Positions 2,417 through 29,229 of a stretch of 64,000 nucleotides of DNA are shown piece after piece (the stretch's first letter is position 1; the number at the start of each line of letters is the position of its first letter). The notes under the pieces were generated by a model. That model ran no database searches and was not told the origin of the DNA. It was given only the letters and a program-made list of their open reading frames with translations. The DNA comes from Meghimatium bilineatum. Its lineage: Eukaryota > Mollusca > Gastropoda > Stylommatophora > Philomycidae. The stretch covers positions 20,526,173 to 20,590,172 of the forward strand of contig CM067311.1 in the NCBI GenBank assembly GCA_034231615.1, written 5' to 3'. The position numbers and the translations under genes were made by a program.

Positions 2417-3672
2417 TGTGTTTTTTGGCATATTACTCACAAATTGGGTTTACTGCAGCTTACTACACCAGAATTTGTAGTCTGGACACACGCATTTGGT
2501 GTATTCCAGCTTACTACGTTAGAACTCGGTGTTATCTGGCATATTACTCACAAATTGGGTGTACTGCAGCTTACTACACCAGAATTTGTAGTCTGGACAC
2601 ACGCATTTGGTGTATTCCAGCTTAATACGTTAGAACTCGGTGTATTCTGGTATACTACTCACAAATTGGGTGTACTGCAGCTTACTACACCAGAAATTGT
2701 AGTCTGAACACACGAATTTGGTGTATTCCAGCTTACTACGTTAGAACTCGGTGTATTCTGGCATATTACTCAGAAATTCATTGTACTGAAGCTTACTACA
2801 CTAGAATTGATTGTATTCTGGCCTTTTACACATGACTTCGTTGTTTTGCAGATTGATACGTAAGAACACTGGCGAATTACACACAAATTAGGTCTTGCTG
2901 TTTAGTATGTCAAAAGTCAGTGTTTTCTGGCATATTACTCACAAATTGGGTGTACTGCAGCTTACTACACCAGAATTTGTTGTCTGGACACACGCATTTG
3001 GTGTATTCAAGCTTAATACGTTAGAACTCGGTGTTTTCTGGCATATTACTCACAAATTGGGTGTACTGCAGCTTACTACACCAGAATTTGTAGTCTGGAC
3101 ACACGCAATTGGTGTATTCCAGCTTACTACGTTAGAACTCGGTGTTTTCTGGCATATTACTCACAAATTCATTGTACTGAAGCTTACAACACTAGAATTG
3201 AGTGTATTCTGGCATATTACACATGACTTCGTTGTTTTGCAGCTTAATACGTAAGAACACTGGCGAATTGCTCACAAATTAGGTCTCTTGCTGTTTAGTA
3301 CGTCAAAACTCAGTGTTCTGTGAAATATTACTCACAAATTGGGTGTACTGCAGCTTACTACACCAGAATTTGTAGTCTGGACACGCATTTGGTGTATTCA
3401 AGCTTAATACTTTAGAACTCGGTGTTTTCTTGCATATTACTCAGAAATTGGGTGCACTGCAGCTTACTACACCAGAATTTGTAGTCTGGACACACGCATT
3501 TGGTGTATTCCAGCTTACTACGTTAGAACTCGGTGTTTTCTGGCATATTACTCACAAATTCATTGTACTGAAGCTTACAACACTAGAATTGAGTGTATTC
3601 TGGCATATTACACATGACTTCGTTGTTTTGCAGCTTAATACATAAGAACACTGGCGTATTGCACACAAATTA

Positions 3673-4065
3673 GGTCTCTTGCTGTTTAGTACGTCAAAAC
3701 TCAGTGTTCTGTGGAATATTACTCACAAATTGGGTGTACTGCAGCTTACTACACCAGAATTTGTAGTCTGGACACACGCATTTGGTGTATTCCAGCTTAC
3801 TACGTTAGAACTCGGTGTTTTCTGGCATATTACTCACAAATTGGGTGTACTGCAGCTTACTACACCAGAATTTGTAGTCTGGACACACGCATTTGGTGTA
3901 TTCCAGCTTACTACGTTAGAACTCTGTGTTTTCTGGCATATTACTGACAAATTCATTGTACTGAAGCTTACTACACTAGAATTGATTGTATTCTGGCCTA
4001 TTACACATGATTTCGTTGTTTTGCAGATTGATACGTAAGAACACTGGCGTATTACACACAAATTA
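3673..4065 (+). repeat. Exemplar 393-bp cassette (i-j, abcd, abcd, e-f-g-h)
   Basis: Order and positions: i 3673-3702, j 3703-3732, abcd 3733-3843, abcd 3844-3954, e 3955-3984 (core actgaagctt), f 3985-4014 (core ttctggcctatta), g 4015-4044 (ends near acgtaagaacac), h 4045-4065 (21 bp, tggcgtattacacac), then the next i at 4066. It equals the 282-bp cassette plus one 111-bp unit. Unit h matches the last 21 bases of d at 18 of 21 positions, so it is a W unit lacking its first 9 bp. Unit g in this copy contains an in-frame TAA (acgtaag), which closes the forward reading frame. Cassettes of 391 to 395 bp elsewhere are this type with small indels. Confidence 0.93.
3733..3843 (+). repeat. Exemplar 111-bp repeat unit (a-b-c-d, 30+21+30+30)
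   Basis: This is the cleanest copy of the commonest unit and is followed directly by a second copy at 3844-3954. Sub-units: a 3733-3762 (starts ggtgtactgcag), b 3763-3783 (gtagtctggacacac core, only 21 bp), c 3784-3813 (ggtgtattccag, ends gaactc), d 3814-3843 (ggtgttttctggcatatt, ends caaattg). Units a and c are Q type; b and d are W type, b being shortened by about 9 bp. Composition is 27 A, 24 C, 23 G, 37 T. Unit a carries a PstI site (ctgcag), so PstI should cut the array into a ladder with 111-bp steps. In the main frame the four units read as 10-, 7-, 10- and 10-residue peptides beginning GVLQ, VVWT, GVFQ and GVFW. Confidence 0.95.
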
Positions 4066-5283
4066 GGTCTTGCTGTTTAGTATGTCAAAAGCCAGTGTTC
4101 TATGGCATATTACTCACAAATTGGGTGTACTGCAGCTTACTACACCAGAATTTGTAGTCTGGACACACGCATTTGGTGTATTCAAGCTTAATACTTTAGA
4201 ACTCGTTGTTTTCTGGCATATTACTCACAAATTGGGTGTACTGCAGCTTACTACACCAGAATTTGTAGTCTGGACACACGCATTTGGTGTATTCCAGCTT
4301 ACTACGTTAGAACTCGGTGTTTTTTGGCATATTACTGACAAATTCATTGTACTGAAGCTTACTACACTAGAATTGATTGTATTCTGGCCTATTATATATG
4401 ATTCTGTTGTATTGCAGCATAATACGTCAGAATACTGGCGTACTACACACAAATTAGGTCTTGCTGTTTAGTATGTCAAAACTCAGTGTTTTCTGGCATA
4501 TTACTCACAAATTGGGTGTACTGCAGCTTACTACACCAGAATTTGTAGTCTGGACACACGCATTAGGTGTATTCAAGCTTAATACGTAAGAACACTGGCA
4601 TATTGCACACAAATTAGGTCTCTTGCTGTTTAGTACGTCAAAACAGTGTTCTGTGGAATATTACAAATTGGGTGTACTGCAGCTTACTACACCAGAATTT
4701 GTAGTCTGGACACACACATTTGGTGTATTCCAGCTTACTACGTTAGAACTCGGTGTTCTGTGGAATATTACTCACAAATTGGGTGTACTGCAGCTTACTA
4801 CACCAGAATGTGTAGTCTGGACACACGCATTTGGTGTATTCCAGCTTACTACGTTAGAACTCAGTGTTTTCTGACATATTACTCACAAATTCATTGTACT
4901 GAAGCTTACAACACTAGAGTTGAGTGTATTCTGGCCTATTATACATGATTCTGTTGTATTGCAGCATAATTCGTCAGAATACTGGCGTATTACACACAAA
5001 TTAGGTCTTGCTGTTTAGTATGTCAAAACTCAGTGTTTTCTGGCATATTACTCACGAATTTGGTTTACTGCAGCTTACTACAGCAGAATTTGTAGTCTGG
5101 ACACACGCATTTGGTGTATTCCAGCGTACTACGTTAGAAGTCGGTGTTTTCTGGCATATTACTCACAAATTCATTGTACTGAAGCTTACTACACTAGAAT
5201 TGATTGTATTCTGGCCTATTATACATGATTCTGTTGTATTGCAGCATAATACGTCAGAATACTGGCGTATTACACACAAATTA

Positions 5284-5787
5284 GGTCTCTTGCTGTTTGA
5301 TACGTCAAAACTCAGTGTTCTGTGGAATATTACTCACAAATTGGGTGTACTGCAGCTTACTACACCAGAATTTGTAGTCTGGACACACGCATTTGGTGTA
5401 TTCCAGCTTACTACGTTAGAACTCGGTGTTTTCTGGCATATTACTCACAAATTGGGTGTACTGCAGCTTACTACACCAGAATTTGTAGTCTGGACACACG
5501 CATTTGGTGTATTCCAGCTTAATACGTTAGAACTCGGTGTATTCTGGTATACTACTCACAAATTGGGTGTACTGCAGCTTACTACACCAGAAATTGTAGT
5601 CTGAACACACGAATTTGGTGTATTCCAGCTTACTACGTTAGAACTCGGTGTATTCTGGCATATTACTCAGAAATTCATTGTACTGAAGCTTACAACACTA
5701 GAATTGAGTGTATTCTGGCCTATTACACATGACATCATTGTTTTGCAGCTTGAAACGTAAGAAAACTGGCGTACTGCACACAAATTA
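5284..5787 (+). repeat. Exemplar 504-bp cassette (282 plus two 111-bp units)
   Basis: The anchor spacing of 504 bp equals 282 + 2 x 111. The last abcd unit is distinctive: its c is followed by a 'ggtatactac' variant of d, and its final b reads gtctgaacacacgaattt, changing the usual TGG codon to TGA and ending the forward frame. The gtctgaacac variant recurs once near the 3' part of almost every 502/504-bp cassette, so it is a good tag for that cassette type. The 502-bp form (short i) is found at, for example, 9903, 12073, 13686, 17251, 21900 and 60481. Confidence 0.9.
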
Positions 5788-6349
5788 GGTCTCTTGCTGT
5801 TTGGTACGTCAAAACTCAATGTTCTGTGGAATATTACTCACAAATTAGGTGTACTGCAGCTTACTACACCAGAATGTGTAGTCTGGACACACGCATTTGG
5901 TGTATTCCAGCTTACTACGTTAGAACTCAGTGTTTTCTGACATATTACTCACAAATTCATTGTACTGAAGCTTACAACACTAGAGTTGAGTGTATTCTGG
6001 CCTATTATACATGATTCTGTTGTATTGCAGCATAATTCGTCAGAATACTGGCGTATTACACACAAATTAGGTCTTGCTGTTTAGTATGTCAAAACTCAGT
6101 GTTTTCTGGCATATTACTCACGAATTTGGTTTACTGCAGCTTACTACAGCAGAATTTGTAGTCTGGACACACGCATTTAGTGTATTCCAGCGTACTACGT
6201 TAGAAGTCGGTGTTTTCTGGCATATTACTCACAAATTCATTGTACTGAAGCTTACTACACTAGAATTGATTGTATTCTGGCCTATTATACATGATTCTGT
6301 TGTATTGCAGCATAATACGTCAGAATACTGGCGTATTACACACAAATTA

Positions 6350-6511
6350 GGTCTCTTGCTGTTTGATACGTCAAAACTCAGTGTTCTGTGGAATATTACT
6401 CACAAATTGGGTGTACTGTAGCTTACTACACCAGAATTTGTAGTCTGGACACACGCATTTGGTGTATTCCAGCTTACTACGAAAGAACACTGGCGTATTG
6501 CACACAAATTA
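6350..6511 (+). repeat. Exemplar 162-bp cassette (deleted form, i-j-a-b-g-h)
   Basis: The spacing between anchors here is 162 bp, exactly 120 bp less than 282. Units c to f are gone, and a hybrid Q unit (start ggtgtattccag like c, end acgaaagaacac like g) runs straight into h. The simplest reading is an unequal exchange between homologous positions in c and g. The same form with small indels gives 160 bp (e.g. 1273-1432, 4457-4616) and 158 bp (36430-36587); with one or two added 111-bp units it gives 273 bp (e.g. 13137-13409) or 384 bp (56390-56773). This copy also has a unique change of ctgcag to ctgtag near 6417-6422. Confidence 0.9.
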
Positions 6512-6559
6512 GGTCTCTTGCTGTTTAGTACGTCAAAACAGTGTTCTGTGGAATATTAC

Positions 6560-9500
6560 AAATTGGGTGCACTGCAGCTTACTACACCAGAATTTGTAGT
6601 CTGGACACACGCATTTGGTGTATTCCAGCTTACTACGTTAGAACTCGGTGTTTTCTGGCATATTACTCACAAATTCATTGTACTGAAGCTTACAACACTA
6701 GAATTGAGTGTATTCTGGCATATTACACATGACTTCGTTGTTTTGCAGCTTAATACGTAAGAACACTGGCGTATTGCACACAAATTAGGTCTCTTGCTGT
6801 TTAGTACGTCAAAACTCAGTGTTCTGTGGAATATTACTCACAAATTGGGTGTACTGCAGCTTACTACACCAGAATTTGTAGTCTGGACACACGCATTTGG
6901 TGTATTCCAGCTTACTACGTTAGAACTCGGTGTTTTCTGGCATATTACTCACAAATTGGGTGTACTGCAGCTTACTACACCAGAATTTGTAGTCTGGACA
7001 CACGCATTTGGTGTATTCCAGCTTACTACGTTAGAACTCTGTGTTTTCTGGCATATTACTGACAAATTCATTGTACTGAAGCTTACTACACTAGAATTGA
7101 TTGTATTCTGGCCTATTACACATGATTTCGTTGTTTTGCAGATTGATACGTAAGAACACTGGCGTATTACACACAAATTAGGTCTTGCTGTTTAGTATGT
7201 CAAAAGCCAGTGTTCTATGGCATATTACTCACAAATTGGGTGTACTGCAGCTTACTACACCAGAATTTGTAGTCTGGACACACGCATTTGGTGTATTCAA
7301 GCTTAATACTTTAGAACTCGTTGTTTTCTGGCATATTACTCACAAATTGGGTGTACTGCAGCTTACTACACCAGAATTTGTAGTCTGGACACACGCATTT
7401 GGTGTATTCCAGCTTACTACGTTAGAACTCGGTGTTTTTTGGCATATTACTGACAAATTCATTGTACTGAAGCTTACTACACTAGAATTGATTGTATTCT
7501 GGCCTATTATATATGATTCTGTTGTATTGCAGCATAATACGTCAGAATACTGGCGTACTACACACAAATTAGGTCTTGCTGTTTAGTATGTCAAAACTCA
7601 GTGTTTTCTGGCATATTACTCACAAATTGGGTGTACTGCAGCTTACTACACCAGAATTTGTAGTCTGGACACACGCATTAGGTGTATTCAAGCTTAATAC
7701 GTAAGAACACTGGCATATTGCACACAAATTAGGTCTCTTGCTGTTTAGTACGTCAAAACAGTGTTCTGTGGAATATTACAAATTGGGTGTACTGCAGCTT
7801 ACTACACCAGAATTTGTAGTCTGGACACACACATTTGGTGTATTCCAGCTTACTACGTTAGAACTCGGTGTTCTGTGGAATATTACTCACAAATTGGGTG
7901 TACTGCAGCTTACTACACCAGAATGTGTAGTCTGGACACACGCATTTGGTGTATTCCAGCTTACTACGTTAGAACTCAGTGTTTTCTGACATATTACTCA
8001 CAAATTCATTGTACTGAAGCTTACAACACTAGAGTTGAGTGTATTCTGGCCTATTATACATGATTCTGTTGTATTGCAGCATAATTCGTCAGAATACTGG
8101 CGTATTACACACAAATTAGGTCTTGCTGTTTAGTATGTCAAAACTCAGTGTTTTCTGGCATATTACTCACGAATTTGGTTTACTGCAGCTTACTACAGCA
8201 GAATTTGTAGTCTGGACACACGCATTTGGTGTATTCCAGCGTACTACGTTAGAAGTCGGTGTTTTCTGGCATATTACTCACAAATTCATTGTACTGAAGC
8301 TTACTACACTAGAATTGATTGTATTCTGGCCTATTATACATGATTCTGTTGTATTGCAGCATAATACGTCAGAATACTGGCGTATTACACACAAATTAGG
8401 TCTCTTGCTGTTTGATACGTCAAAACTCAGTGTTCTGTGGAATATTACTCACAAATTGGGTGTACTGCAGCTTACTACACCAGAATTTGTAGTCTGGACA
8501 CACGCATTTGGTGTATTCCAGCTTACTACGTTAGAACTCGGTGTTTTCTGGCATATTACTCACAAATTGGGTGTACTGCAGCTTACTACACCAGAATTTG
8601 TAGTCTGGACACACGCATTTGGTGTATTCCAGCTTAATACGTTAGAACTCGGTGTATTCTGGTATACTACTCACAAATTGGGTGTACTGCAGCTTACTAC
8701 ACCAGAAATTGTAGTCTGAACACACGAATTTGGTGTATTCCAGCTTACTACGTTAGAACTCGGTGTATTCTGGCATATTACTCAGAAATTCATTGTACTG
8801 AAGCTTACAACACTAGAATTGAGTGTATTCTGGCCTATTACACATGACATCATTGTTTTGCAGCTTGAAACGTAAGAAAACTGGCGTACTGCACACAAAT
8901 TAGGTCTCTTGCTGTTTGGTACGTCAAAACTCAATGTTCTGTGGAATATTACTCACAAATTAGGTGTACTGCAGCTTACTACACCAGAATGTGTAGTCTG
9001 GACACACGCATTTGGTGTATTCCAGCTTACTACGTTAGAACTCAGTGTTTTCTGACATATTACTCACAAATTCATTGTACTGAAGCTTACAACACTAGAG
9101 TTGAGTGTATTCTGGCCTATTATACATGATTCTGTTGTATTGCAGCATAATTCGTCAGAATACTGGCGTATTACACACAAATTAGGTCTTGCTGTTTAGT
9201 ATGTCAAAACTCAGTGTTTTCTGGCATATTACTCACGAATTTGGTTTACTGCAGCTTACTACAGCAGAATTTGTAGTCTGGACACACGCATTTAGTGTAT
9301 TCCAGCGTACTACGTTAGAAGTTGGTGTTTTCTGGCATATTACTCACAAATTCATTGTACTGAAGCTTACTACACTAGAATTGATTGTATTCTGGCCTAT
9401 TATACATGATTCTGTTGTATTGCAGCATAATACGTCAGAATACTGGCGTATTACACACAAATTAGGTCTCTTGCTGTTTGATACGTCAAAACTCAGTGTT

Positions 9501-9674
9501 CTGTGGAATATTACTCACAAATTGGGTGTACTGCAGCTTACTACACCAGAATTTGTAGTCTGGACACACGCATTTGGTGTATTCCAGCTTACTACGAAAG
9601 AACACTGGCGTATTGCACACAAATTAGGTCTCTTGCTGTTTAGTACGTCAAAACAGTGTTCTGTGGAATATTAC
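6560..9674 (+). repeat. 3115-bp higher-order repeat, copy 2 of 2
   Basis: Same ten-cassette order as the preceding block, with anchors at 6788, 7181, 7572, 7732, 8119, 8399, 8903, 9185, 9465 and 9627. Similarity to the repeat register stops at about 9675, where ggtgt replaces the ggtgc that marks the start of each copy. The catttagtgtattcc variant of b/c appears once in each copy (6175 and 9290 region), confirming the pairing. The 9321 gttggtg change is a CpG to TpG transition private to this copy. Confidence 0.93.
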
Positions 9675-12600
9675 AAATTGGGTGTACTGCAGCTTACTAC
9701 ACCAGAATTTGTAGTCTGGACACACACATTTGGTGTATTCCAGCTTACTACGTTAGAACTCGGTGTTTTCTGGCATATTACTCACAAATTGGGTGTACTG
9801 CAGCTTACTACACTAGAAGTGATTGTATTCTGGCCTATTATACATGATTCTGTTGTATTGCAGCATAATACGTCAGAATGCTGGCGTATTACACACAAAT
9901 TAGGTCTTGCTGTTTATTATGTCAAAACTCAGTGTTTTTTGGCATATTACTCACAAATTGGGTTTACTGCAGCTTACTACACCAGAATTTGTAGTCTGGA
10001 CACACGCATTTGGTGTATTCCAGCTTACTACGTTAGAACTCGGTTTTTTCTGGCATATTACTCACAAATTGGGTGTACTGCAGCTTACTACACCAGAATT
10101 TGTAGTCTGGACACACGCATTTGGTGTATTCCAGCTTAATACGTTAGAACTCGGTGTATTCTGGTATACTACTCACAAATTGGGTGTACTGCAGCTTACT
10201 ACACCAGAAATTGTAGTCTGAACACACGAATTTGGTGTATTCCAGCTTACTACGTTAGAACTCGGTGTATTCTGGCATATTACTCAGAAATTCATTGTAC
10301 TGAAGCTTACAACACTAGAATTGAGTGTATTCTGGCCTATTACACATGACATCATTGTTTTGCAGCTTGAAACGTAAGAAAACTGGCGTACTGCACACAA
10401 ATTAGGTCTCTTGCTGTTTGGTACGTCAAAACTCAATGTTCTGTGGAATATTACTCACAAATTAGGTGTACTGCAGCTTACTACACCAGAATGTGTAGTC
10501 TGGACACACGCATTTGGTGTATTCCAGCTTACTACGTTAGAACTCAGTGTTTTCTGACATATTACTCACAAATTCATTGTACTGAAGCTTACAACACTAG
10601 AGTTGAGTGTATTCTGGCCTATTATACATGATTCTGTTGTATTGCAGCATAATTCGTCAGAATACTGGCGTATTACACACAAATTAGGTCTTGCTGTTTA
10701 GTATGTCAAAACTCAGTGTTTTCTGGCATATTACTCACGAATTTGGTTTACTGCAGCTTACTACAGCAGAATTTGTAGTCTGGACACACGCATTTGGTGT
10801 ATTCCAGCGTACTACGTTAGAAGTCGGTGTTTTCTGGCATATTACTCACAAATTCATTGTACTGAAGCTTACTACACTAGAATTGATTGTATTCTGGCCT
10901 ATTATACATGATTCTGTTGTATTGCAGCATAATACGTCAGAATACTGGCGTATTACACACAAATTAGGTCTCTTGCTGTTTGATACGTCAAAACAGTGTT
11001 CTGTGGAATATTACAAATTGGGTGTACTGCAGCTTACTACACCAGAATTTGTAGTCTGGACACACACATTTGGTGTATTCCAGCTTACTACGTTAGAACT
11101 CGGTGTTTTCTGGCATATTACTCACAAATTGGGTGTACTGCAGCTTACTACACAGAATTTGTAGTCTGGACACACGCATTTGGTGTATTCCAGCTTACTA
11201 CGTTAGAACTCGGTGTTTTCTGGCATATTACTCACAAATGCATTGTACTGAAGCTTACAACACTAGAATTGAGTGTATTCTGGCATATTACACATGACTT
11301 CGTTGTTTTGCAGCTTAATACGTAAGAACACTGGCATAGTGCACACAAATTAGGTCTCTTGCTGTTTAGTACGTCAAAACTCAGTGTTCTGTGGTATATT
11401 ACTCACAAATTTGGTGTACTGCAGCTTACTACAGCAGAATTTGTAGTCTGGACACACGCATTTGGTGTATTCCAGCGTACTACGTTAGAAGTCGGTGTTT
11501 TCTGGCATATTACTCACAAATTCATTGTACTGAAGCTTACTACACTAGAATTGATTGTATTCTGGCCTATTATACATGATTCTGTTGTATTGCAGCATAA
11601 TACGTCAGAATACTGGCGTATTACACACAAATTAGGTCTCTTGCTGTTTGGTACGTCAAAACTCAGTGTTCTGTGGAATATTACTCACAAATTAGGTGTA
11701 CTGCAGCTTACTACACCAGAAATTGTAGTCTGGACACACGCATTTGGTGTATTCCAGCTTACTACGAAAGAACACTGGCGTATTGCACACAAATTAGGTC
11801 TCTTGCTGTTTAGTACGTCAAAACAGTGTTCTGTGGAATATTACAAATTGGGTGTACTGCAGCTTACTACACCAGAATTTGTAGTCTGGACACACACATT
11901 TGGTGTATTCCAGCTTACTACGTTAGAACTCGGTGTTTTCTGGCATATTACTCACAAATTGGGTGTACTGCAGCTTACTACACTAGAAGTGATTGTATTC
12001 TGGCCTATTATACATGATTCTGTTGTATTGCAGCATAATACGTCAGAATGCTGGCGTATTACACACAAATTAGGTCTTGCTGTTTATTATGTCAAAACTC
12101 AGTGTTTTTTGGCATATTACTCACAAATTGGGTTTACTGCAGCTTACTACACCAGAATTTGTAGTCTGGACACACGCATTTGGTGTATTCCAGCTTACTA
12201 CGTTAGAACTCGGTGTTTTCTGGCATATTACTCACAAATTGGGTGTACTGCAGCTTACTACACCAGAATTTGTAGTCTGGACACACGCATTTGGTGTATT
12301 CCAGCTTAATACGTTAGAACTCGGTGTATTCTGGTATACTACTCACAAATTGGGTGTACTGCAGCTTACTACACCAGAAATTGTAGTCTGAACACACGAA
12401 TTTGGTGTATTCCAGCTTACTACGTTAGAACTCGGTGTATTCTGGCATATTACTCAGAAATTCATTGTACTGAAGCTTACAACACTAGAATTGAGTGTAT
12501 TCTGGCCTATTACACATGACATCATTGTTTTGCAGCTTGAAACGTAAGAAAACTGGCGTACTGCACACAAATTAGGTCTCTTGCTGTTTGGTACGTCAAA

Positions 12601-15600: not shown

Positions 15601-17487
15601 CAGATTGATACGTAAGAACACTGGCGTATTACACACAAATTAGGTCTTGCTGTTTAGTATGTCAAAAGCCAGTGTTCTATGGCATATTACTCACAAATTG
15701 GGTGTACTGCAGCTTACTACACCAGAATTTGTAGTCTGGACACACGCATTTGGTGTATTCAAGCTTAATACTTTAGAACTCGTTGTTTTCTGGCATATTA
15801 CTCACAAATTGGGTGTACTGCAGCTTACTACACCAGAATTTGTAGTCTGGACACACGCATTTGGTGTATTCCAGCTTACTACGTTAGAACTCGGTGTTTT
15901 TTGGCATATTACTGACAAATTCATTGTACTGAAGCTTACTACACTAGAATTGATTGTATTCTGGCCTATTATATATGATTCTGTTGTATTGCAGCATAAT
16001 ACGTCAGAATACTGGCGTACTACACACAAATTAGGTCTTGCTGTTTAGTATGTCAAAACTCAGTGTTTTCTGGCATATTACTCACAAATTGGGTGTACTG
16101 CAGCTTACTACACCAGAATTTGTAGTCTGGACACACGCATTAGGTGTATTCAAGCTTAATACGTAAGAACACTGGCGTATTGCACACAAATTAGGTCTCT
16201 TGCTGTTTAGTACGTCAAAACAGTGTTCTGTGGAGTATTACAAATTGGGTGTACTGCAGCTTACTACACCAGAATTTGTAGTCTGGACACACACATTTGG
16301 TGTATTCCAGCTTACTACGTTAGAACTCGGTGTTTTCTGGCATATTACTCACAAATTGGGTGTACTGCAGCTTACTACACAGAATTTGTAGTCTGGACAC
16401 ACGCATTTGGTGTATTCCAGCTTACTACGTTAGAACTCGGTGTTTTCTGGCATATTACTCACAAATGCATTGTACTGAAGCTTACAACACTAGAATTGAG
16501 TGTATTCTGGCATATTACACATGACTTCGTTGTTTTGCAGCTTAATACGTAAGAACACTGGCATAGTGCACACAAATTAGGTCTCTTGCTGTTTAGTACG
16601 TCAAAACTCAGTGTTCTGTGGTATATTACTCACAAATTTGGTGTACTGCAGCTTACTACAGCAGAATTTGTAGTCTGGACACACGCATTTGGTGTATTCC
16701 AGCGTACTACGTTAGAAGTCGGTGTTTTCTGGCATATTACTCACAAATTCATTGTACTGAAGCTTACTACACTAGAATTGATTGTATTCTGGCCTATTAT
16801 ACATGATTCTGTTGTATTGCTAATACGTCAGAATACTGGCGTATTACACACAAATTAGGTCTCTTGCTGTTTGGTACGTCAAAACTCAGTGTTCTGTGGA
16901 ATATTACTCACAAATTAGGTGTACTGTAGCTTACTACACCAGAATTTGTAGTCTGGACACACGCATTTGGTGTATTCCAGCTTAATACGTTAGAACTCGG
17001 TGTATTCTGGTATACTACTCACAAATTGGGTGTACTGCAGCTTATTACACCAGAATTTGTAGTCTGGACACACACATTTGGTGTATTCCAGCTTACTACG
17101 TTAGAACTCGGTGTTTTCTGGCATATTACTCACAAATTGGGTGTACTGCAGCTTACTACACTAGAAGTGATTGTATTCTGGCCTATTATACATGATTCTG
17201 TTGTATTGCAGCATAATACGTCAGAATGCTGGCGTATTACACACAAATTAGGTCTTGCTGTTTATTATGTCAAAACTCAGTGTTTTTTGGCATATTACTC
17301 ACAAATTGGGTTTACTGCAGCTTACTACACCAGAATTTGTAGTCTGGACACACGCATTTGGTGTATTCCAGCTTACTACGTTAGAACTCGGTGTTTTCTG
17401 GCATATTACTCACAAATTGGGTGTACTGCAGCTTACTACACCAGAATTTGTAGTCTGGACACACGCATTTGGTGTATTCCAGCTTAA
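9675..17487 (+). repeat. Mosaic cassette region with a 2170-bp offset repeat
   Basis: Anchors at 9903, 10405, 10687, 10967, 11353, 11635, 11797, 12073, 12575, 12857, 13137, 13410, 13686, 14188, 14579, 14861, 15250, 15643, 16034, 16194, 16580, 16858 and 17251. Bases from about 9560 to 10985 recur from about 11730 to 13155 at an offset of 2170, the sum of 276, 502, 282, 280, 386, 282 and 162. Bases 10983 to about 13547 match 20810 to 23374 (offset 9827), and roughly 15410 to 16800 match 20010 to 21400 (offset 4600). The run 276, 502, 391, 282, 389, 393, 391, 160, 386 from 13686 resembles the order after 50383, suggesting an older higher-order repeat. No non-satellite sequence is visible. Confidence 0.9.
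16811..16828 (+). repeat. Unique 4-bp deletion in unit g
   Basis: Reads gttgtattgctaatacg where the norm is gttgtattgcagcataatacg, shortening the cassette at 16580 from 282 to 278 bp. It breaks the forward frame that stays open here in sister copies (for example at 11353 and 21180). Confidence 0.88.
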
Positions 17488-18607
17488 TACGTTAGAACTC
17501 GGTGTATTCTGGTATACTACTCACAAATTGGGTGTACTGCAGCTTACTACACCAGAAATTGTAGTCTGAACACACGAATTTGGTGTATTCCAGCTTACTA
17601 CGTTAGAACTCGGTGTATTCTGGCATATTACTCAGAAATTCATTGTACTGAAGCTTACAACACTAGAATTGAGTGTATTCTGGCCTATTACACATGACAT
17701 CATTGTTTTGCAGCTTGAAACGTAAGAAAACTGGCGTACTGCACACAAATTAGGTCTCTTGCTGTTTGGTACGTCAAAACTCAGTGTTCTGTGGAATATT
17801 ACTCACAAATTAGGTGTACTGCAGCTTACTACACCAGAATTTGTAGTCTGGACACACGCATTTGGTGTATTCCAGCTTACTACGTTAGAACTCAGTGTTT
17901 TCTGACATATTACTCACAAATTCATTGTACTGAAGCTTACAACACTAGAGTTGAGTGTATTCTGGCCTATTATACATGATTCTGTTGTATTGCAGCATAA
18001 TTCGTCAGAATACTGGCGTATTACACACAAATTAGGTCTTGCTGTTTAGTATGTCAAAACTCAGTGTTCTGTGGAATATTACTCACAAATTGGGTGTACT
18101 GCAGCTTACTACACCAGAATTTGTAGTCTGGACACACGCATTTGGTGTATTCCAGCTTACTACGTTAGAAGTCGGTGTTTTCTGGCATATTACTCACAAA
18201 TTAATTGTACTGAAGAATTGTACACTAGAATTCTACACTAGAATTGATTGTATTCTGGCCTATTATATATGATTCTGTTGTATTGCAGCATAATACGTCA
18301 GAATACTGGCGTACTACACACAAATTAGGTCTTGCTGTTTGGTACGTCAAAACTCAGTGTTCTGTGGAATATTACTCACAAATTGGGTGTACTGCAGCTT
18401 ACTACACCAGAATTTGTAGTCTGGACACACGCATTTGGTGTATTCCAGCTTACTACGTTAGAACTCAGTGTTTTCTGACATATTACTCACAAATTCATTG
18501 TACTGAAGCTTACAACACTAGAATTGAGTGTATTCTGGCCTATTACACATGACATCATTGTTTTGCAGCTTGAAACGTAAGAAAACTGGCGTACTGCACA
18601 CAAATTA

Positions 18608-18883
18608 GGTCTCTTGCTGTTTGGTACGTCAAAACTCAGTGTTCTGTGGAATATTACTCACAAATTAGGTGTACTGCAGCTTACTACACCAGAATTTATA
18701 GTCTGGACACACGCATTTGGTGTATTCCAGCTTACTACGTTAGAACTCGGAGTTTTCTGGCATATTACTCACAAATACATTGTAATGAAGCTTACTACAC
18801 TAGAATTGAGTGTATTCTGGCCTATTACACAGTCCTTGTTGTGCAGCTTAATACGTAAGAACTGGCGTATTGCATACAAATTA
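18608..18883 (+). repeat. Exemplar 276-bp cassette with a 6-bp loss across units f and g
   Basis: This 276-bp spacing has a different cause from the 276-bp cassettes with a shortened j. Here the f/g border reads cacagtccttgttgtgcag and the end of g is cgtaagaactgg, together 6 bp shorter than the normal f+g (54 against 60). Unit d carries the variant acaaatacattgtaatgaag. It sits directly before the 295-bp cassette and recurs with it in the 5871-bp copies (24479, 30350) and, as a 274-bp short-i form, at 45612 and 62598. The pair of cassettes therefore travels as a block. Confidence 0.85.
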
Positions 18884-19178
18884 GGTCTCTTGCTGTTTAG
18901 TACGTCAAAACTCAGTGTTCTGTGGAATATTACTCACAAATTGGGTGTACTGCAGCTTACTACACCAGAATTTGTAGTCTGGACACACGCATTTGGTGTA
19001 TTCCAGCTTACTACGTTAGAAGTCGGTGTTTTCTGGCATATTACTCACAAATTAATTGTACTGAAGAATTGTACACTAGAATTCTACACTAGAATTGATT
19101 GTATTCTGGCCTATTATATATGATTCTGTTGTATTGCAGCATAATACGTCAGAATACTGGCGTACTACACACAAATTA
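18884..19178 (+). repeat. Exemplar 295-bp cassette with a 13-bp internal duplication in unit e
   Basis: Anchor spacing is 282 + 13. In unit e the usual gaagcttactacactag is replaced by gaagaattgtacactag followed by a second tacactagaatt, so 19072-19084 and 19085-19097 are direct repeats of 13 bases differing only at the last base. The duplication creates an EcoRI site (gaattc, 19079-19084). The same form is at 18221-18246, 24092-24117, 24943-24968, 29963-29988, 30814-30839, 46074-46099, 47041-47066 and 63060-63085. The short-i form is 293 bp (18035-18327), and one copy has an extra T (296 bp, 46852-47147). Confidence 0.9.
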
Positions 19179-22100
19179 GGTCTTGCTGTTTAGAATGTCA
19201 AAACTCAGTGTTTTCTGGCATATTACTCACAAATTGGGTGTACTGCAGCTTACTACACCAGAATTTGTAGTCTGGACACACGCATTTGGTGTATTCCAGC
19301 TTACTACGTTAGAACTCGGTGTTTTCTGGCATATTACTGACAAATTCATTGTACTGAAGCTTACTACACTAGAATTGATTGTATTCTGGCCTATTACACA
19401 TGACTTCGTTGTTTTGCAGATTGATACGTAAGAACACTGGCGTATTACACACAAATTAGGTCTTGCTGTTTAGTATGTCAAAAGTCAGTGTTTTCTGGCA
19501 TATTACTCACAAATTGGGTGTACTGCAGCTTACTACACCAGAATTTGTAGTCTGGACACACGCATTTGGTGTATTCAAGCTTAATACGTTAGAACTCGGT
19601 GTTTTCTGGCATATTACTCACAAATTGGGTGTACTGCAGCTTACTACACCAGAATTTGTAGTCTGGACACACGCAATTGGTGTATTCCAGCTTACTACGT
19701 TATAACTCGGTGTTTTCTGGCATATTACTCACAAATTCATTGTACTGAAGCTTACAACACTAGAATTGAGTGTATTCTGGCATATTACACATGACTTCGT
19801 TGTTTTGCAGCTTAATACGTAAGAACACTGGCGAATTGCTCACAAATTAGGTCTCTTGCTGTTTAGTACGTCAAAACTCAGTGTTCTGTGGAATATTACT
19901 CACAAATTGGGTGTACTGCAGCTTACTACACCAGAATTTGTAGTCTGGACACACGCATTTGGTGTATTCAAGCTTACTACGTTAGAACTCGGTGTTTTCT
20001 GGCATATTACTCACAAATTGGGTGTACTGCAGCTTACTACACCAGAATTTGTAGTCTGGACACACGCATTTGGTGTATTCCAGCTTACTACGTTAGAACT
20101 CGGTGTTTTCTGGCATATTACTGACAAATTCATTGTACTGAAGCTTACTACACTAGAATTGATTGTATTCTGGCCTATTACACATGATTTCGTTGTTTTG
20201 CAGATTGATACGTAAGAACACTGGCGTATTACACACAAATTAGGTCTTGCTGTTTAGTATGTCAAAAGCCAGTGTTCTATGGCATATTACTCACAAATTG
20301 GGTGTACTGCAGCTTACTACACCAGAATTTGTAGTCTGGACACACGCATTTGGTGTATTCAAGCTTAATACTTTAGAACTCGTTGTTTTCTCGCATATTA
20401 CTCACAAATTGGGTGTACTGCAGCTTACTACACCAGAATTTGTAGTCTGGACACACGCATTTGGTGTATTCCAGCTTACTACGTTAGAACTCGGTGTTTT
20501 TTGGCATATTACTGAAAAATTCATTGTACTGAAGCTTACTACACTAGAATTGATTGTATTCTGGCCTATTATATATGATTCTGTTGTATTGCAGCATAAT
20601 ACGTCAGAATACTGGCGTACTACACACAAATTAGGTCTTGCTGTTTAGTATGTCAAAACTCAGTGTTTTCTGGCATATTACTCACAAATTGGGTGTACTG
20701 CAGCTTACTACACCAGAATTTGTAGTCTGGACACACGCATTAGGTGTATTCAAGCTTAATACGTAAGAACACTGGCATATTGCACACAAATTAGGTCTCT
20801 TGCTGTTTAGTACGTCAAAACAGTGTTCTGTGGAATATTACAAATTGGGTGTACTGCAGCTTACTACACCAGAATTTGTAGTCTGGACACACACATTTGG
20901 TGTATTCCAGCTTACTACGTTAGAACTCGGTGTTTTCTGGCATATTACTCACAAATTGGGTGTACTGCAGCTTACTACACAGAATTTGTAGTCTGGACAC
21001 ACGCATTTGGTGTATTCCAGCTTACTACGTTAGAACTCGGTGTTTTCTGGCATATTACTCACAAATGCATTGTACTGAAGCTTACAACACTAGAATTGAG
21101 TGTATTCTGGCATATTACACATGACTTCGTTGTTTTGCAGCTTAATACGTAAGAACACTGGCATAGTGCACACAAATTAGGTCTCTTGCTGTTTAGTACG
21201 TCAAAACTCAGTGTTCTGTGGTATATTACTCACAAATTTGGTGTACTGCAGCTTACTACAGCAGAATTTGTAGTCTGGACACACACATTTGGTGTATTCC
21301 AGCGTACTACGTTAGAAGTCGGTGTTTTCTGGCATATTACTCACAAATTCATTGTACTGAAGCTTACTACACTAGAATTGATTGTATTCTGGCCTATTAT
21401 ACATGATTCTGTTGTATTGCAGCATAATACGTCAGAATACTGGCGTATTACACACAAATTAGGTCTCTTGCTGTTTGGTACGTCAAAACTCAGTGTTCTG
21501 TGGAATATTACTCACAAATTAGGTGTACTGCAGCTTACTACACCAGAAATTGTAGTCTGGACACACGCATTTGGTGTATTCCAGCTTACTACGAAAGAAC
21601 ACTGGCGTATTGCACACAAATTAGGTCTCTTGCTGTTTAGTACGTCAAAACAGTGTTCTGTGGAATATTACAAATTGGGTGTACTGCAGCTTACTACACC
21701 AGAATTTGTAGTCTGGACACACACATTTGGTGTATTCCAGCTTACTACGTTAGAACTCGGTGTTTTCTGGCATATTACTCACAAATTGGGTGTACTGCAG
21801 CTTACTACACTAGAAGTGATTGTATTCTGGCCTATTATACATGATTCTGTTGTATTGCAGCATAATACGTCAGAATGCTGGCGTATTACACACAAATTAG
21901 GTCTTGCTGTTTATTATGTCAAAACTCAGTGTTTTTTGGCATATTACTCACAAATTGGGTTTACTGCAGCTTACTACACCAGAATTTGTAGTCTGGACAC
22001 ACGCATTTGGTGTATTCCAGCTTACTACGTTAGAACTCGGTGTTTTCTGGCATATTACTCACAAATTGGGTGTACTGCAGCTTACTACACCAGAATTTGT

Positions 22101-23358
22101 AGTCTGGACACACGCATTTGGTGTATTCCAGCTTAATACGTTAGAACTCGGTGTATTCTGGTATACTACTCACAAATTGGGTGTACTGCAGCTTACTACA
22201 CCAGAAATTGTAGTCTGAACACACGAATTTGGTGTATTCCAGCTTACTACGTTAGAACTCGGTGTATTCTGGCATATTACTCAGAAATTCATTGTACTGA
22301 AGCTTACAACACTAGAATTGAGTGTATTCTGGCCTATTACACATGACATCATTGTTTTGCAGCTTGAAACGTAAGAAAACTGGCGTACTGCACACAAATT
22401 AGGTCTCTTGCTGTTTGGTACGTCAAAACTCAATGTTCTGTGGAATATTACTCACAAATTAGGTGTACTGCAGCTTACTACACCAGAATGTGTAGTCTGG
22501 ACACACGCATTTGGTGTATTCCAGCTTACTACGTTAGAACTCAGTGTTTTCTGACATATTACTCACAAATTCATTGTACTGAAGCTTACAACACTAGAGT
22601 TGAGTGTATTCTGGCCTATTATACATGATTCTGTTGTATTGCAGCATAATTCGTCAGAATACTGGCGTATTACACACAAATTAGGTCTTGCTGTTTAGTA
22701 TGTCAAAACTCAGTGTTTTCTGGCATATTACTCACGAATTTGGTTTACTGCAGCTTACTACAGCAGAATTTGTAGTCTGGACACACGCATTTGGTGTATT
22801 CCAGCGTACTACGTTAGAAGTCGGTGTTTTCTGGCATATTACTCACAAATTCATTGTACTGAAGCTTACTACACTAGAATTGATTGTATTCTGGCCTATT
22901 ATACATGATTCTGTTGTATTGCAGCATAATACGTCAGAATACTGGCGTATTACACACAAATTAGGTCTCTTGCTGTTTGATACGTCAAAACTCAGTGTTC
23001 TGTGGAATATTACTCACAAATTAGGTGTACTGCAGCTTACTACACCAGAATTTGTAGTCTGGACACACGCATTTGGTGTATTCCAGCTTAATACGTTAGA
23101 ACTCGGTGTATTCTGGCATACTACTCACAAATTGGGTGTACTGCAGCTTACGACACCAGAAATTGTAGTCTGGACACACGCATTTGGTGTATTCCAGCTT
23201 ACTACGAAAGAACACTGGCGTATTGCACACAAATTAGGTCTCTTGCTGTTTAGTACGTCAAAACAGTGTTCTGTGGAATATTACAAATTGGGTGTACTGC
23301 AGCTTACTACACCAGAATTTGTAGTCTGGACACACACATTTGGTGTATTCCAGCTTAC

Positions 23359-26300
23359 TACGTTAGAACTCGGTGTATTCTGGTATACTACTCACAAATT
23401 GGGTGTACTGCAGCTTACTACACCAGAAATTGTAGTCTGAACACACGAATTTGGTGTATTCCAGCTTACTACGTTAGAACTCGGTGTATTCTGGCATATT
23501 ACTCAGAAATTCATTGTACTGAAGCTTACAACACTAGAATTGAGTGTATTCTGGCCTATTACACATGACATCATTGTTTTGCAGCTTGAAACGTAAGAAA
23601 ACTGGCGTACTGCACACAAATTAGGTCTCTTGCTGTTTGGTACGTCAAAACTCAGTGTTCTGTGGAATATTACTCACAAATTAGGTGTACTGCAGCTTAC
23701 TACACCAGAATTTGTAGTCTGGACACACGCATTTGGTGTATTCCAGCTTACTACGTTAGAACTCAGTGTTTTCTGACATATTACTCACAAATTCATTGTA
23801 CTGAAGCTTACAACACTAGAGTTGAGTGTATTCTGGCCTATTATACATGATTCTGTTGTATTGCAGCATAATTCGTCAGAATACTGGCGTATTACACACA
23901 AATTAGGTCTTGCTGTTTAGTATGTCAAAACTCAGTGTTCTGTGGAATATTACTCACAAATTGGGTGTACTGCAGCTTACTACACCAGAATTTGTAGTCT
24001 GGACACACGCATTTGGTGTATTCCAGCTTACTACGTTAGAAGTCGGTGTTTTCTGGCATATTACTCACAAATTAATTGTACTGAAGAATTGTACACTAGA
24101 ATTCTACACTAGAATTGATTGTATTCTGGCCTATTATATATGATTCTGTTGTATTGCAGCATAATACGTCAGAATACTGGCGTACTACACACAAATTAGG
24201 TCTTGCTGTTTGGTACGTCAAAACTCAGTGTTCTGTGGAATATTACTCACAAATTGGGTGTACTGCAGCTTACTACACCAGAATTTGTAGTCTGGACACA
24301 CGCATTTGGTGTATTCCAGCTTACTACGTTAGAACTCAGTGTTTTCTGACATATTACTCACAAATTCATTGTACTGAAGCTTACAACACTAGAATTGAGT
24401 GTATTCTGGCCTATTACACATGACATCATTGTTTTGCAGCTTGAAACGTAAGAAAACTGGCGTACTGCACACAAATTAGGTCTCTTGCTGTTTGGTACGT
24501 CAAAACTCAGTGTTCTGTGGAATATTACTCACAAATTAGGTGTACTGCAGCTTACTACACCAGAATTTATAGTCTGGACACACGCATTTGGTGTATTCCA
24601 GCTTACTACGTTAGAACTCGGAGTTTTCTGGCATATTACTCACAAATACATTGTAATGAAGCTTACTACACTAGAATTGAGTGTATTCTGGCCTATTACA
24701 CAGTCCTTGTTGTGCAGCTTAATACGTAAGAACTGGCGTATTGCATACAAATTAGGTCTCTTGCTGTTTAGTACGTCAAAACTCAGTGTTCTGTGGAATA
24801 TTACTCACAAATTGGGTGTACTGCAGCTTACTACACCAGAATTTGTAGTCTGGACACACGCATTTGGTGTATTCCAGCTTACTACGTTAGAAGTCGGTGT
24901 TTTCTGGCATATTACTCACAAATTAATTGTACTGAAGAATTGTACACTAGAATTCTACACTAGAATTGATTGTATTCTGGCCTATTATATATGATTCTGT
25001 TGTATTGCAGCATAATACGTCAGAATACTGGCGTACTACACACAAATTAGGTCTTGCTGTTTAGAATGTCAAAACTCAGTGTTTTCTGGCATATTACTCA
25101 CAAATTGGGTGTACTGCAGCTTACTACACCAGAATTTGTAGTCTGGACACACGCATTTGGTGTATTCCAGCTTACTACGTTAGAACTCGGTGTTTTCTGG
25201 CATATTACTGACAAATTCATTGTACTGAAGCTTACTACACTAGAATTGATTGTATTCTGGCCTATTACACATGACTTCGTTGTTTTGCAGATTGATACGT
25301 AAGAACACTGGCGTATTACACACAAATTAGGTCTTGCTGTTTAGTATGTCAAAAGTCAGTGTTTTCTGGCATATTACTCACAAATTGGGTGTACTGCAGC
25401 TTACTACACCAGAATTTGTAGTCTGGACACACGCATTTGGTGTATTCAAGCTTAATACGTTAGAACTCGGTGTTTTCTGGCATATTACTCACAAATTGGG
25501 TGTACTGCAGCTTACTACACCAGAATTTGTAGTCTGGACACACGCAATTGGTGTATTCCAGCTTACTACGTTATAACTCGGTGTTTTCTGGCATATTACT
25601 CACAAATTCATTGTACTGAAGCTTACAACACTAGAATTGAGTGTATTCTGGCATATTACACATGACTTCGTTGTTTTGCAGCTTAATACGTAAGAACACT
25701 GGCGAATTGCTCACAAATTAGGTCTCTTGCTGTTTAGTACGTCAAAACTCAGTGTTCTGTGGAATATTACTCACAAATTGGGTGTACTGCAGCTTACTAC
25801 ACCAGAATTTGTAGTCTGGACACACGCATTTGGTGTATTCAAGCTTACTACGTTAGAACTCGGTGTTTTCTGGCATATTACTCACAAATTGGGTGTACTG
25901 CAGCTTACTACACCAGAATTTGTAGTCTGGACACACGCATTTGGTGTATTCCAGCTTACTACGTTAGAACTCGGTGTTTTCTGGCATATTACTGACAAAT
26001 TCATTGTACTGAAGCTTACTACACTAGAATTGATTGTATTCTGGCCTATTACACATGATTTCGTTGTTTTGCAGATTGATACGTAAGAACACTGGCGTAT
26101 TACACACAAATTAGGTCTTGCTGTTTAGTATGTCAAAAGCCAGTGTTCTATGGCATATTACTCACAAATTGGGTGTACTGCAGCTTACTACACCAGAATT
26201 TGTAGTCTGGACACACGCATTTGGTGTATTCAAGCTTAATACTTTAGAACTCGTTGTTTTCTCGCATATTACTCACAAATTGGGTGTACTGCAGCTTACT

Positions 26301-29229
26301 ACACCAGAATTTGTAGTCTGGACACACGCATTTGGTGTATTCCAGCTTACTACGTTAGAACTCGGTGTTTTTTGGCATATTACTGACAAATTCATTGTAC
26401 TGAAGCTTACTACACTAGAATTGATTGTATTCTGGCCTATTATATATGATTCTGTTGTATTGCAGCATAATACGTCAGAATACTGGCGTACTACACACAA
26501 ATTAGGTCTTGCTGTTTAGTATGTCAAAACTCAGTGTTTTCTGGCATATTACTCACAAATTGGGTGTACTGCAGCTTACTACACCAGAATTTGTAGTCTG
26601 GACACACGCATTAGGTGTATTCAAGCTTAATACGTAAGAACACTGGCATATTGCACACAAATTAGGTCTCTTGCTGTTTAGTACGTCAAAACAGTGTTCT
26701 GTGGAATATTACAAATTGGGTGTACTGCAGCTTACTACACCAGAATTTGTAGTCTGGACACACACATTTGGTGTATTCCAGCTTACTACGTTAGAACTCG
26801 GTGTTTTCTGGCATATTACTCACAAATTGGGTGTACTGCAGCTTACTACACAGAATTTGTAGTCTGGACACACGCATTTGGTGTATTCCAGCTTACTACG
26901 TTAGAACTCGGTGTTTTCTGGCATATTACTCACAAATGCATTGTACTGAAGCTTACAACACTAGAATTGAGTGTATTCTGGCATATTACACATGACTTCG
27001 TTGTTTTGCAGCTTAATACGTAAGAACACTGGCATAGTGCACACAAATTAGGTCTCTTGCTGTTTAGTACGTCAAAACTCAGTGTTCTGTGGTATATTAC
27101 TCACAAATTTGGTGTACTGCAGCTTACTACAGCAGAATTTGTAGTCTGGACACACACATTTGGTGTATTCCAGCGTACTACGTTAGAAGTCGGTGTTTTC
27201 TGGCATATTACTCACAAATTCATTGTACTGAAGCTTACTACACTAGAATTGATTGTATTCTGGCCTATTATACATGATTCTGTTGTATTGCAGCATAATA
27301 CGTCAGAATACTGGCGTATTACACACAAATTAGGTCTCTTGCTGTTTGGTACGTCAAAACTCAGTGTTCTGTGGAATATTACTCACAAATTAGGTGTACT
27401 GCAGCTTACTACACCAGAAATTGTAGTCTGGACACACGCATTTGGTGTATTCCAGCTTACTACGAAAGAACACTGGCGTATTGCACACAAATTAGGTCTC
27501 TTGCTGTTTAGTACGTCAAAACAGTGTTCTGTGGAATATTACAAATTGGGTGTACTGCAGCTTACTACACCAGAATTTGTAGTCTGGACACACACATTTG
27601 GTGTATTCCAGCTTACTACGTTAGAACTCGGTGTTTTCTGGCATATTACTCACAAATTGGGTGTACTGCAGCTTACTACACTAGAAGTGATTGTATTCTG
27701 GCCTATTATACATGATTCTGTTGTATTGCAGCATAATACGTCAGAATGCTGGCGTATTACACACAAATTAGGTCTTGCTGTTTATTATGTCAAAACTCAG
27801 TGTTTTTTGGCATATTACTCACAAATTGGGTTTACTGCAGCTTACTACACCAGAATTTGTAGTCTGGACACACGCATTTGGTGTATTCCAGCTTACTACG
27901 TTAGAACTCGGTGTTTTCTGGCATATTACTCACAAATTGGGTGTACTGCAGCTTACTACACCAGAATTTGTAGTCTGGACACACGCATTTGGTGTATTCC
28001 AGCTTAATACGTTAGAACTCGGTGTATTCTGGTATACTACTCACAAATTGGGTGTACTGCAGCTTACTACACCAGAAATTGTAGTCTGAACACACGAATT
28101 TGGTGTATTCCAGCTTACTACGTTAGAACTCGGTGTATTCTGGCATATTACTCAGAAATTCATTGTACTGAAGCTTACAACACTAGAATTGAGTGTATTC
28201 TGGCCTATTACACATGACATCATTGTTTTGCAGCTTGAAACGTAAGAAAACTGGCGTACTGCACACAAATTAGGTCTCTTGCTGTTTGGTACGTCAAAAC
28301 TCAATGTTCTGTGGAATATTACTCACAAATTAGGTGTACTGCAGCTTACTACACCAGAATGTGTAGTCTGGACACACGCATTTGGTGTATTCCAGCTTAC
28401 TACGTTAGAACTCAGTGTTTTCTGACATATTACTCACAAATTCATTGTACTGAAGCTTACAACACTAGAGTTGAGTGTATTCTGGCCTATTATACATGAT
28501 TCTGTTGTATTGCAGCATAATTCGTCAGAATACTGGCGTATTACACACAAATTAGGTCTTGCTGTTTAGTATGTCAAAACTCAGTGTTTTCTGGCATATT
28601 ACTCACGAATTTGGTTTACTGCAGCTTACTACAGCAGAATTTGTAGTCTGGACACACGCATTTGGTGTATTCCAGCGTACTACGTTAGAAGTCGGTGTTT
28701 TCTGGCATATTACTCACAAATTCATTGTACTGAAGCTTACTACACTAGAATTGATTGTATTCTGGCCTATTATACATGATTCTGTTGTATTGCAGCATAA
28801 TACGTCAGAATACTGGCGTATTACACACAAATTAGGTCTCTTGCTGTTTGATACGTCAAAACTCAGTGTTCTGTGGAATATTACTCACAAATTAGGTGTA
28901 CTGCAGCTTACTACACCAGAATTTGTAGTCTGGACACACGCATTTGGTGTATTCCAGCTTAATACGTTAGAACTCGGTGTATTCTGGCATACTACTCACA
29001 AATTGGGTGTACTGCAGCTTACGACACCAGAAATTGTAGTCTGGACACACGCATTTGGTGTATTCCAGCTTACTACGAAAGAACACTGGCGTATTGCACA
29101 CAAATTAGGTCTCTTGCTGTTTAGTACGTCAAAACAGTGTTCTGTGGAATATTACAAATTGGGTGTACTGCAGCTTACTACACCAGAATTTGTAGTCTGG
29201 ACACACACATTTGGTGTATTCCAGCTTAC
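23359..29229 (+). repeat. 5871-bp higher-order repeat, copy 2 of 3
   Basis: Same nineteen-cassette order, with every anchor displaced by exactly 5871 from copy 1 (23624, 23906, 24199, 24479 and so on to 29108). Rare variants that mark the copy, tctcgcatatt at about 26261 and cttacgacacc at about 29019, are conserved. I saw no difference from copy 3 by eye. The junction with copy 1 lies inside a c unit, so the exchange that made the tandem was in register with the 30-bp unit. Confidence 0.95.

Follow-up and report, generated by a model that had tools for sequence, protein, structure and literature searches.

Higher-order satellite DNA built from a 30-bp unit in Meghimatium bilineatum: probable growth order of a putative centromeric or pericentromeric array

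In a satellite with nested repeat lengths, which length came first, and can the order of growth still be read from the array? This question is raised by a 64-kb stretch of DNA of Meghimatium bilineatum (GCA_034231615.1), which we call the window. It corresponds to positions 20526173-20590172 of the 68.08-Mb contig CM067311.1 (C14); the assembly comprises 1.61 Gb in 32 contigs. A first-pass annotation had singled out window positions 3673-4065 as a nested satellite and had read from them a full growth history, leading from one 30-bp ancestor via a 60-bp dimer and a 111-bp unit to a 282-bp cassette. The repeats are real at this place, but the interval is an arbitrary 393-bp slice: the entire window is one single satellite, as both the rows of Tandem Repeats Finder (TRF) and a decomposition into units span bases 1-64000, and the satellite continues beyond. 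It is satellite DNA with higher-order repeats, i.e. diverged monomers are arranged head-to-tail in larger, more homogeneous repeats. Judged from its sequence, the window probably belongs to the core of a megabase array, likely centromeric or pericentromeric, in which a 171-bp module (B) gave rise to a 162-bp form (P) and this form to a 111-bp module (A), the kilobase copies being the newest level.

For the decomposition, either of two 30-bp templates, Q and W, could be chosen freely for each unit. The resulting 2305 units represent 172 distinct sequences, and Q and W alternate in 2291 of the 2304 neighbour pairs. The alternating dimer proposed previously is thus real, its alternation being near-strict rather than strict. 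Four of the 13 exceptional pairs (at two places) look like one-base boundary artefacts. The other nine stem from one recurring, rearranged Q variant with the motif AATTGTACACTAG, which is the sole alternation break not resembling such an artefact; besides its first copy, it is found at 19054, 24074, 24925, 29945, 30796, 46056, 47023, and 63042. This variant was apparently spread by kilobase duplications and may be useful as a marker for tracing them. In 17 additional 10-kb samples from the array (L050-L066), 6029 of 6064 pairs alternate; this sum leaves out the mixed edge piece L067 (244/360) as well as two other edge pieces, L049 and L068.

A FastTree phylogeny of 105 units (58 Q, 47 W) separated Q and W into two clades with a support of 0.991 and not a single misplaced unit; note that its alignment columns derive from the template fit, which favours the Q/W split. 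The units were 93 window units seen at least three times, rarer ones being left out, plus 12 consensus units of the flanks. The Q/W label changes once on this tree, compared to a mean of 34.6 and a minimum of 27 changes in 200 label shuffles. For the consensus units of the left flank, the mean W-Q identity is 16.5/30 in register, and 5000 shuffles gave a mean of 8.1 and a maximum of 11.8; in other rotations the identity is at most 11.8. Because the likeness of Q and W is confined to the 0 register, a single 30-bp ancestor is supported, as had been postulated.

Nearly all modules of the window open with a W-Q pair and then continue in one of three ways. Module A (n = 279, mostly 111 bp) consists of W30 Q27 W24 Q30, where numbers give unit lengths in bp. 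Module B (n = 164, mostly 169 or 171 bp) consists of W30 Q30 W30 Q21 W28/30 Q30, which corresponds to three Q/W dimers minus 9 bp; AAGCTT is present in its first Q unit, which says nothing about kinship with the bivalve HindIII (~170 bp) and BIV160 satellites. Module C (n = 32, 29 of them 160 bp) combines the front of A with the rear of B. The shortened, 21-bp W described previously actually reflects two distinct 9-bp losses: in A, Q lacks 3 bp and W lacks 6 bp; in B, the second Q lacks 9 bp. A B module never follows directly after B or C (0 cases versus a mean of 67.2 and a minimum of 51 in 2000 shuffles); the modules are therefore strung together as AB, AAB, AAAB, and C joints. The 282-bp unit is composed of A (111 bp) and B (171 bp).

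The larger nested periods that had been reported are present: TRF periods in the window include 30, 60, 111, 156, 171, 280/282, and 391. Within 3673-4065, the autocorrelation was 0.77 at lag 111, 0.626 at 222, 0.55 at 282, 0.474 at 30, 0.45 at 60, and 0.392 at 51; for 50 first-order Markov resamples of this interval, the mean was 0.264 and the mean-of-maximum 0.382. The peaks expected at 30, 60, 111, and 282 were thus found, the one at 30 bp lying above the resampled control. Lag 51 is just above the null in this interval and clear in the whole window (0.393 versus 0.282, 5 resamples), whereas the expected lag 393 (0.386) is weaker than lag 391 (0.435). The window contains 3835 distinct 24-mers over 63977 positions, the most frequent one occurring 239 times.

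Probes spaced 10-200 kb place the array at approximately 19.793-20.969 Mb of C14, i.e. it extends over about 1.17 Mb, where continuity between probes is taken from the sampled stretches. The 10-kb samples to the left and to the right of the window are the same satellite. From about 20.953 Mb on, the satellite is inverted, and non-satellite sequence breaks it up into islands; in the parts of the array that were sampled, inversion occurs at the right edge only. These islands (about 20.953-20.969 Mb) are diverged, and two non-satellite spacers of about 2.5 kb look similar in the parts that were read. The sequence past the last island is also found at 21.10 Mb and, in reverse orientation, at 21.30 Mb (longest matches 78-95%). 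The left array end adjoins a sequence which, read by eye, is reverse-transcriptase-like. At the contig ends, half of C14:1-5000 (2500 bases) is N, and the final 600 bases show no obvious telomere repeat.

The distribution of the satellite bears on its possible role. An exact 27-base marker of A occurs at 8601 places genome-wide, with 8228 and 373 places on the two strands. Those among the matches listed (100) are all located on C8 (24.869-24.904 Mb); 41 of the 99 spacings between them equal 111 bp and 98 fall within 4 bp of sums of 111 and 171, a check that is weak for longer spacings. Altogether, among the matches listed, exact probes fall on 12 of the 32 contigs, in one interval each. The rarer probes lie (in Mb) on C2 at 44.33-45.92, C4 at 16.99, C7 at 23.36-23.39, C8 at 27.25 and 27.93, C11 at 23.27-23.31, C12 at 27.32, C14 at 20.81, C15 at 34.47, C17 at 15.37-15.77, C20 at 54.04, C22 at 54.81, and C23 at 40.47-40.51. 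All intervals are 3.1 Mb or less, the widest being that of C8 (24.87-27.93 Mb); C15 and C22 have one place each. A further 120-base exact probe across the Q3/W1 joint had 0 matches in the genome. The chief argument for a centromeric or pericentromeric role is that each of the 12 contigs has a single interval; in combination with the megabase size and the nucleosome-scale period, this suggests such chromatin, and the array is likely the putative centromeric or pericentromeric satellite of C14. Alternatively, it could be a heterochromatic block without centromere function, grown by recombination alone, with the centromere of C14 elsewhere. The structural features are explicable by neutral unequal exchange, and we take this alternative seriously, although it is the less probable one: the confinement of the probes to one interval per contig is what centromeres would produce, and 171 bp is nucleosome-scale. 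The primate consensus of the CENP-B box (TTCGNNNNANNCGGG) has no exact match in the window, i.e. the array differs from alpha satellite in this respect. There are 16 sites with one mismatch (shuffles: mean 1.58, largest 7), all of one sequence and on the minus strand (e.g. 6469-6483); by eye, they fall on the second Q in C modules.

Earlier-looking repeat forms persist at the array edges, which makes a likely growth order readable. B-type modules were seen in the sampled core and in both flanks. Units of types A and B are present in samples from 19.85 to 20.70 Mb. In the right flank, the samples taken at 20.76, 20.83, and 20.90 Mb consist mainly of 171-mers with zero W24 and zero Q27 units; the left edge consists mainly of 171-mers, plus a 156-bp form and some modules of 100-111 bp. 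The 171-bp consensus sequences of the flanks (59 left, 170 right copies) agree at 167 of 171 positions; relative to the B171 consensus of the core, they show 12 and 13 differences, respectively. Aligned with the whole left-flank consensus, the consensus of A shows gaps of 3, 6, and 51 bp, 96 of 111 identical positions, and a score of 132.6. With the final contiguous 111 bp of B, the score is 88.0 (78 identical), and with the first 111 bp it is 123.0 (87 identical). Gaps of these lengths predict an intermediate of 162 bp, and such a form does occur: nine modules in the inverted islands were assigned to P. Six of them have 162 bp and show one 3-bp and one 6-bp gap each relative to the 171-bp consensus; the remaining three (160-161 bp) carry additional minor changes. 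When the six are combined into a consensus and aligned with A, 104 of 111 positions are identical and there is a single 51-bp gap. The best reading of the A module at 3712-3822 is a 171-mer that has lost 3, 6, and 51 bp. B would have lost 3+6 bp to yield P, P would have lost 51 bp to yield A, and A would then have been amplified jointly with B. As mechanism, we propose that sister arrays misalign and undergo unequal exchange and/or break-induced replication, the phase being kept through partner pairing at 30/60-bp homology; exchange would renew the core, and other forms would persist at the edges.

A second route to 111 bp exists in the right flank. There, all 15 tested 282-bp intervals (14 distinct) show one clean 60-bp gap relative to two 171-mers. 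This 111-bp unit seems to have arisen separately, as a 171-mer minus one 60-bp dimer. As two routes lead to the periods 111 and 282, period arithmetic alone cannot yield the history. The slice originally chosen reveals the 30-bp levels, but the 162-bp form, the second origin of 111 bp, and the kilobase level lie outside its view. The kilobase duplications are the youngest level: besides the segments listed in the table, tandem segments with periods of 2490, 2274, 2170, and 1961 bp occur in the window, and their identities, including the 3115-bp segment, are 98.4-99.1%.

Several findings weigh against the reading as a whole. For 20 of the 32 contigs, there is no listed exact probe match, and C15 and C22 depend on their single places. 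If the A-marker matches are listed in contig order, the contigs before C8 are without the exact marker, and some chromosomes lack the A core. With respect to the growth order, the direction is based on parsimony and position; an enlargement of the four-unit form to six units is the disfavoured direction. The P modules of different islands look mutually copied, so that nine modules are not nine independent finds, and some edge modules (e.g. pieces of about 138 bp, identity 0.65-0.69) match none of the three module types well. At 20.760-20.770 Mb (sample L063), six 171-mers form a local higher-order period of 1026 bp with an autocorrelation of 0.944. This signals that the right flank was homogenised on its own, and an edge position is consequently no clean clock for age. 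Moreover, A-like 111-bp modules also exist at the extreme left edge and in islands, and A fits the first 111 bp of B nearly as well as the whole 171-mer (123.0 versus 132.6).

The latter two points would also speak for the order assumed in the first-pass annotation, namely that the 60-bp dimer was followed by a 111-bp four-unit form and this by the 282-bp cassette, the 171-mer being a secondary enlargement. The sums agree, as 30+30+30+21+30+30 equals 60+111. However, the register of 111+60+111 is not the homologous one (88.0 versus 132.6), a form exactly intermediate between 171 and 111 bp exists, and 171-mers fill sampled domains without W24 and Q27, whereas no A-only domain is among the samples. 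We consider this order unlikely and probably wrong, and retain the order B, P, A.

Table 1. Location of repeat modules and duplicated segments in the window.
Feature	Position	Strand	Details
Satellite array	1-64000	+	2305 W/Q units of ~30 bp; 475 complete modules (279 A, 164 B, 32 C); one orientation
Tandem segment, period 3115 bp	3427-9850	+	99.1% identity over 3309 bp
B module, 171 bp	3541-3711	+	W30 Q30 W30 Q21 W30 Q30; monomer type present in both flanks too
Interval of the first-pass annotation: end of one B, two A, most of a B	3673-4065	+	out-of-phase slice of B A A B
A module, 111 bp	3712-3822	+	W30 3712-3741, Q27 3742-3768, W24 3769-3792, Q30 3793-3822
Second A module, 111 bp	3823-3933	+	
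B module, 169-bp subtype (W28)	3934-4102	+	Q21 unit at 4024-4044
C module (example), 160 bp	4494-4653	+	A front W30 Q27 W23 joined to B rear Q22 W30 Q28
5871-bp segment in about three tandem copies	17396-35187	+	99.74% identity at one step, 99.49% at two
Rearranged Q variant, first of nine copies	18206-18255	+	13-bp motif AATTGTACACTAG, ~3.4 copies within one Q unit at 18203-18246

A protein-coding tandem repeat in the TGG.../CAG... frame (e.g. of Balbiani-ring type) has a negligible probability: on the plus strand, these frames are open for up to 364 codons, the listed open reading frames (ORFs) reach 353 aa, all 95 listed ORFs of at least 100 aa are located there, and many length changes are multiples of 3, but the 76 one-step differences between units (17 synonymous, 57 nonsynonymous, 2 stop; expected 18.6, 52.9, 4.5) are spread neutrally over the codon positions (29/24/23), each plus frame has 649-762 stops over the window, the 169-bp B modules shift the frame, and neither did two scanned ORFs match Pfam above cut-off nor part of one ORF match the PDB. 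This neutral substitution pattern, which lacks purifying selection, is the reason for rejecting a coding repeat; weak Pfam names (E 0.014-0.079) were all below the cut-offs and were disregarded. The minus frames contain 1315-1560 stops each, and the ORF excess on the plus strand likely reflects the frequency of repeat lengths divisible by 3; selection was not detected. A 2-kb query in distant mode found no similar DNA in plasmids and phages, an exact 25-mer none in viral contigs and prokaryote genome contigs, and neither RNA families (at gathering score) nor tRNAs were detected in the window. Elsewhere in the assembly, around C2:121989805-121990428, a nuclear copy of mitochondrial DNA was noticed, with COX1 (by search) and ND4-/ND2-like parts (by eye). 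This COX1 copy has five TGA codons, and the adjacent mitochondrial reading uses AGA for Ser (invertebrate mitochondrial code).

Why A came to prevail in the core may be related to DNA structure. Modules were folded as single-stranded DNA and compared to dinucleotide shuffles. The mean z was -1.94 for all 52 distinct 111-bp A modules (-2.09 in a sample of 25) and -1.98 for C (15/15), compared to -0.25 (19/19) and -0.24 (22/22) for core B modules and -0.50 (25 of 28) and +0.36 (25 of 101) for flank 171-mers. With a mean of -1.34 over 9 modules, the 162-bp island form is intermediate; a value of -1.12 was obtained for the 156-bp consensus (one sequence), and the 111-bp unit of the right flank had a mean of +0.14 (8 distinct of 15). 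A separate folding tool agrees: values were -2.72 and -2.15 for two A modules, and +0.99 and +1.46 for two B pieces. The effect is moderate, as about half of the A modules (0.48) pass z < -2. A contains the dyads GGTGTA...TACACC and ACTACA...TGTAGT, which are short and lie inside the 111-bp module. Dyads are a feature of many centromeres, according to PMC8997354; that those of A are relevant for a centromere or a replication fork here is conjecture. On this basis, one may speculate that A took over the core through fold-proneness acquired on the way from the 171-mer via the 162-bp form, being a better centromeric or fork-stalling substrate, an explanation to which we give little credence. The 111-bp unit of the right flank, which lost a dimer, shows no fold signal, and is a minority in the samples, constitutes a natural control for it. 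If true, the array would record a gain of centromere competence that can be dated, with the predecessors still alongside.

Human alpha satellite has a 171-bp monomer and forms megabase arrays; in both figures, the present array is similar. The closest described analogue found is human centromere 8 with its layered higher-order alpha-satellite repeats, as portrayed in PMC8997354 (citing Logsdon et al. 2021). The layering is shared; in contrast, the organism group is a different one, the present monomer shows a clear internal ancestry of 30/60 bp, the higher-order repeat mixes the full monomer with a shorter 111-bp form, and the window is devoid of an exact CENP-B box. Among molluscs, PMC5874043 describes Ac4p1 of Adamussium colbecki, a repeat of about 33 bp made of subrepeats of about 11 bp. 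As in our case, monomers derive from short diverged subrepeats, and unequal crossing-over into higher-order units was proposed there; compared by description, the clones are 726 and 237 bp long, and the text consulted mentions no megabase array with ordered domains (PMC5874043). The major and minor satellites of Tribolium madens stem from one element of about 110 bp and possess macro-dyads, as stated in PMC13081366. Like here, two related modules are intermingled in a megabase, probably centromeric or pericentromeric setting with dyad structure, but those dyads are inverted arrays over tens of kb, whereas the ones of A are short (PMC13081366).

A search of open papers by title or abstract start gave none that describes this satellite. 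The kind of sequence is known; this member of it has an unusually complete series of forms and a corrected, probable order of growth. Homogenisation usually obscures the origins of satellites. Here, one assembled array retains 30-bp units, Q/W dimers, the 171-, 162-, and 111-bp forms, and kilobase copies, as well as a second route to 111 bp. This makes it a good test case for deciding whether recombination alone or selection on DNA structure chooses the module that occupies the core.
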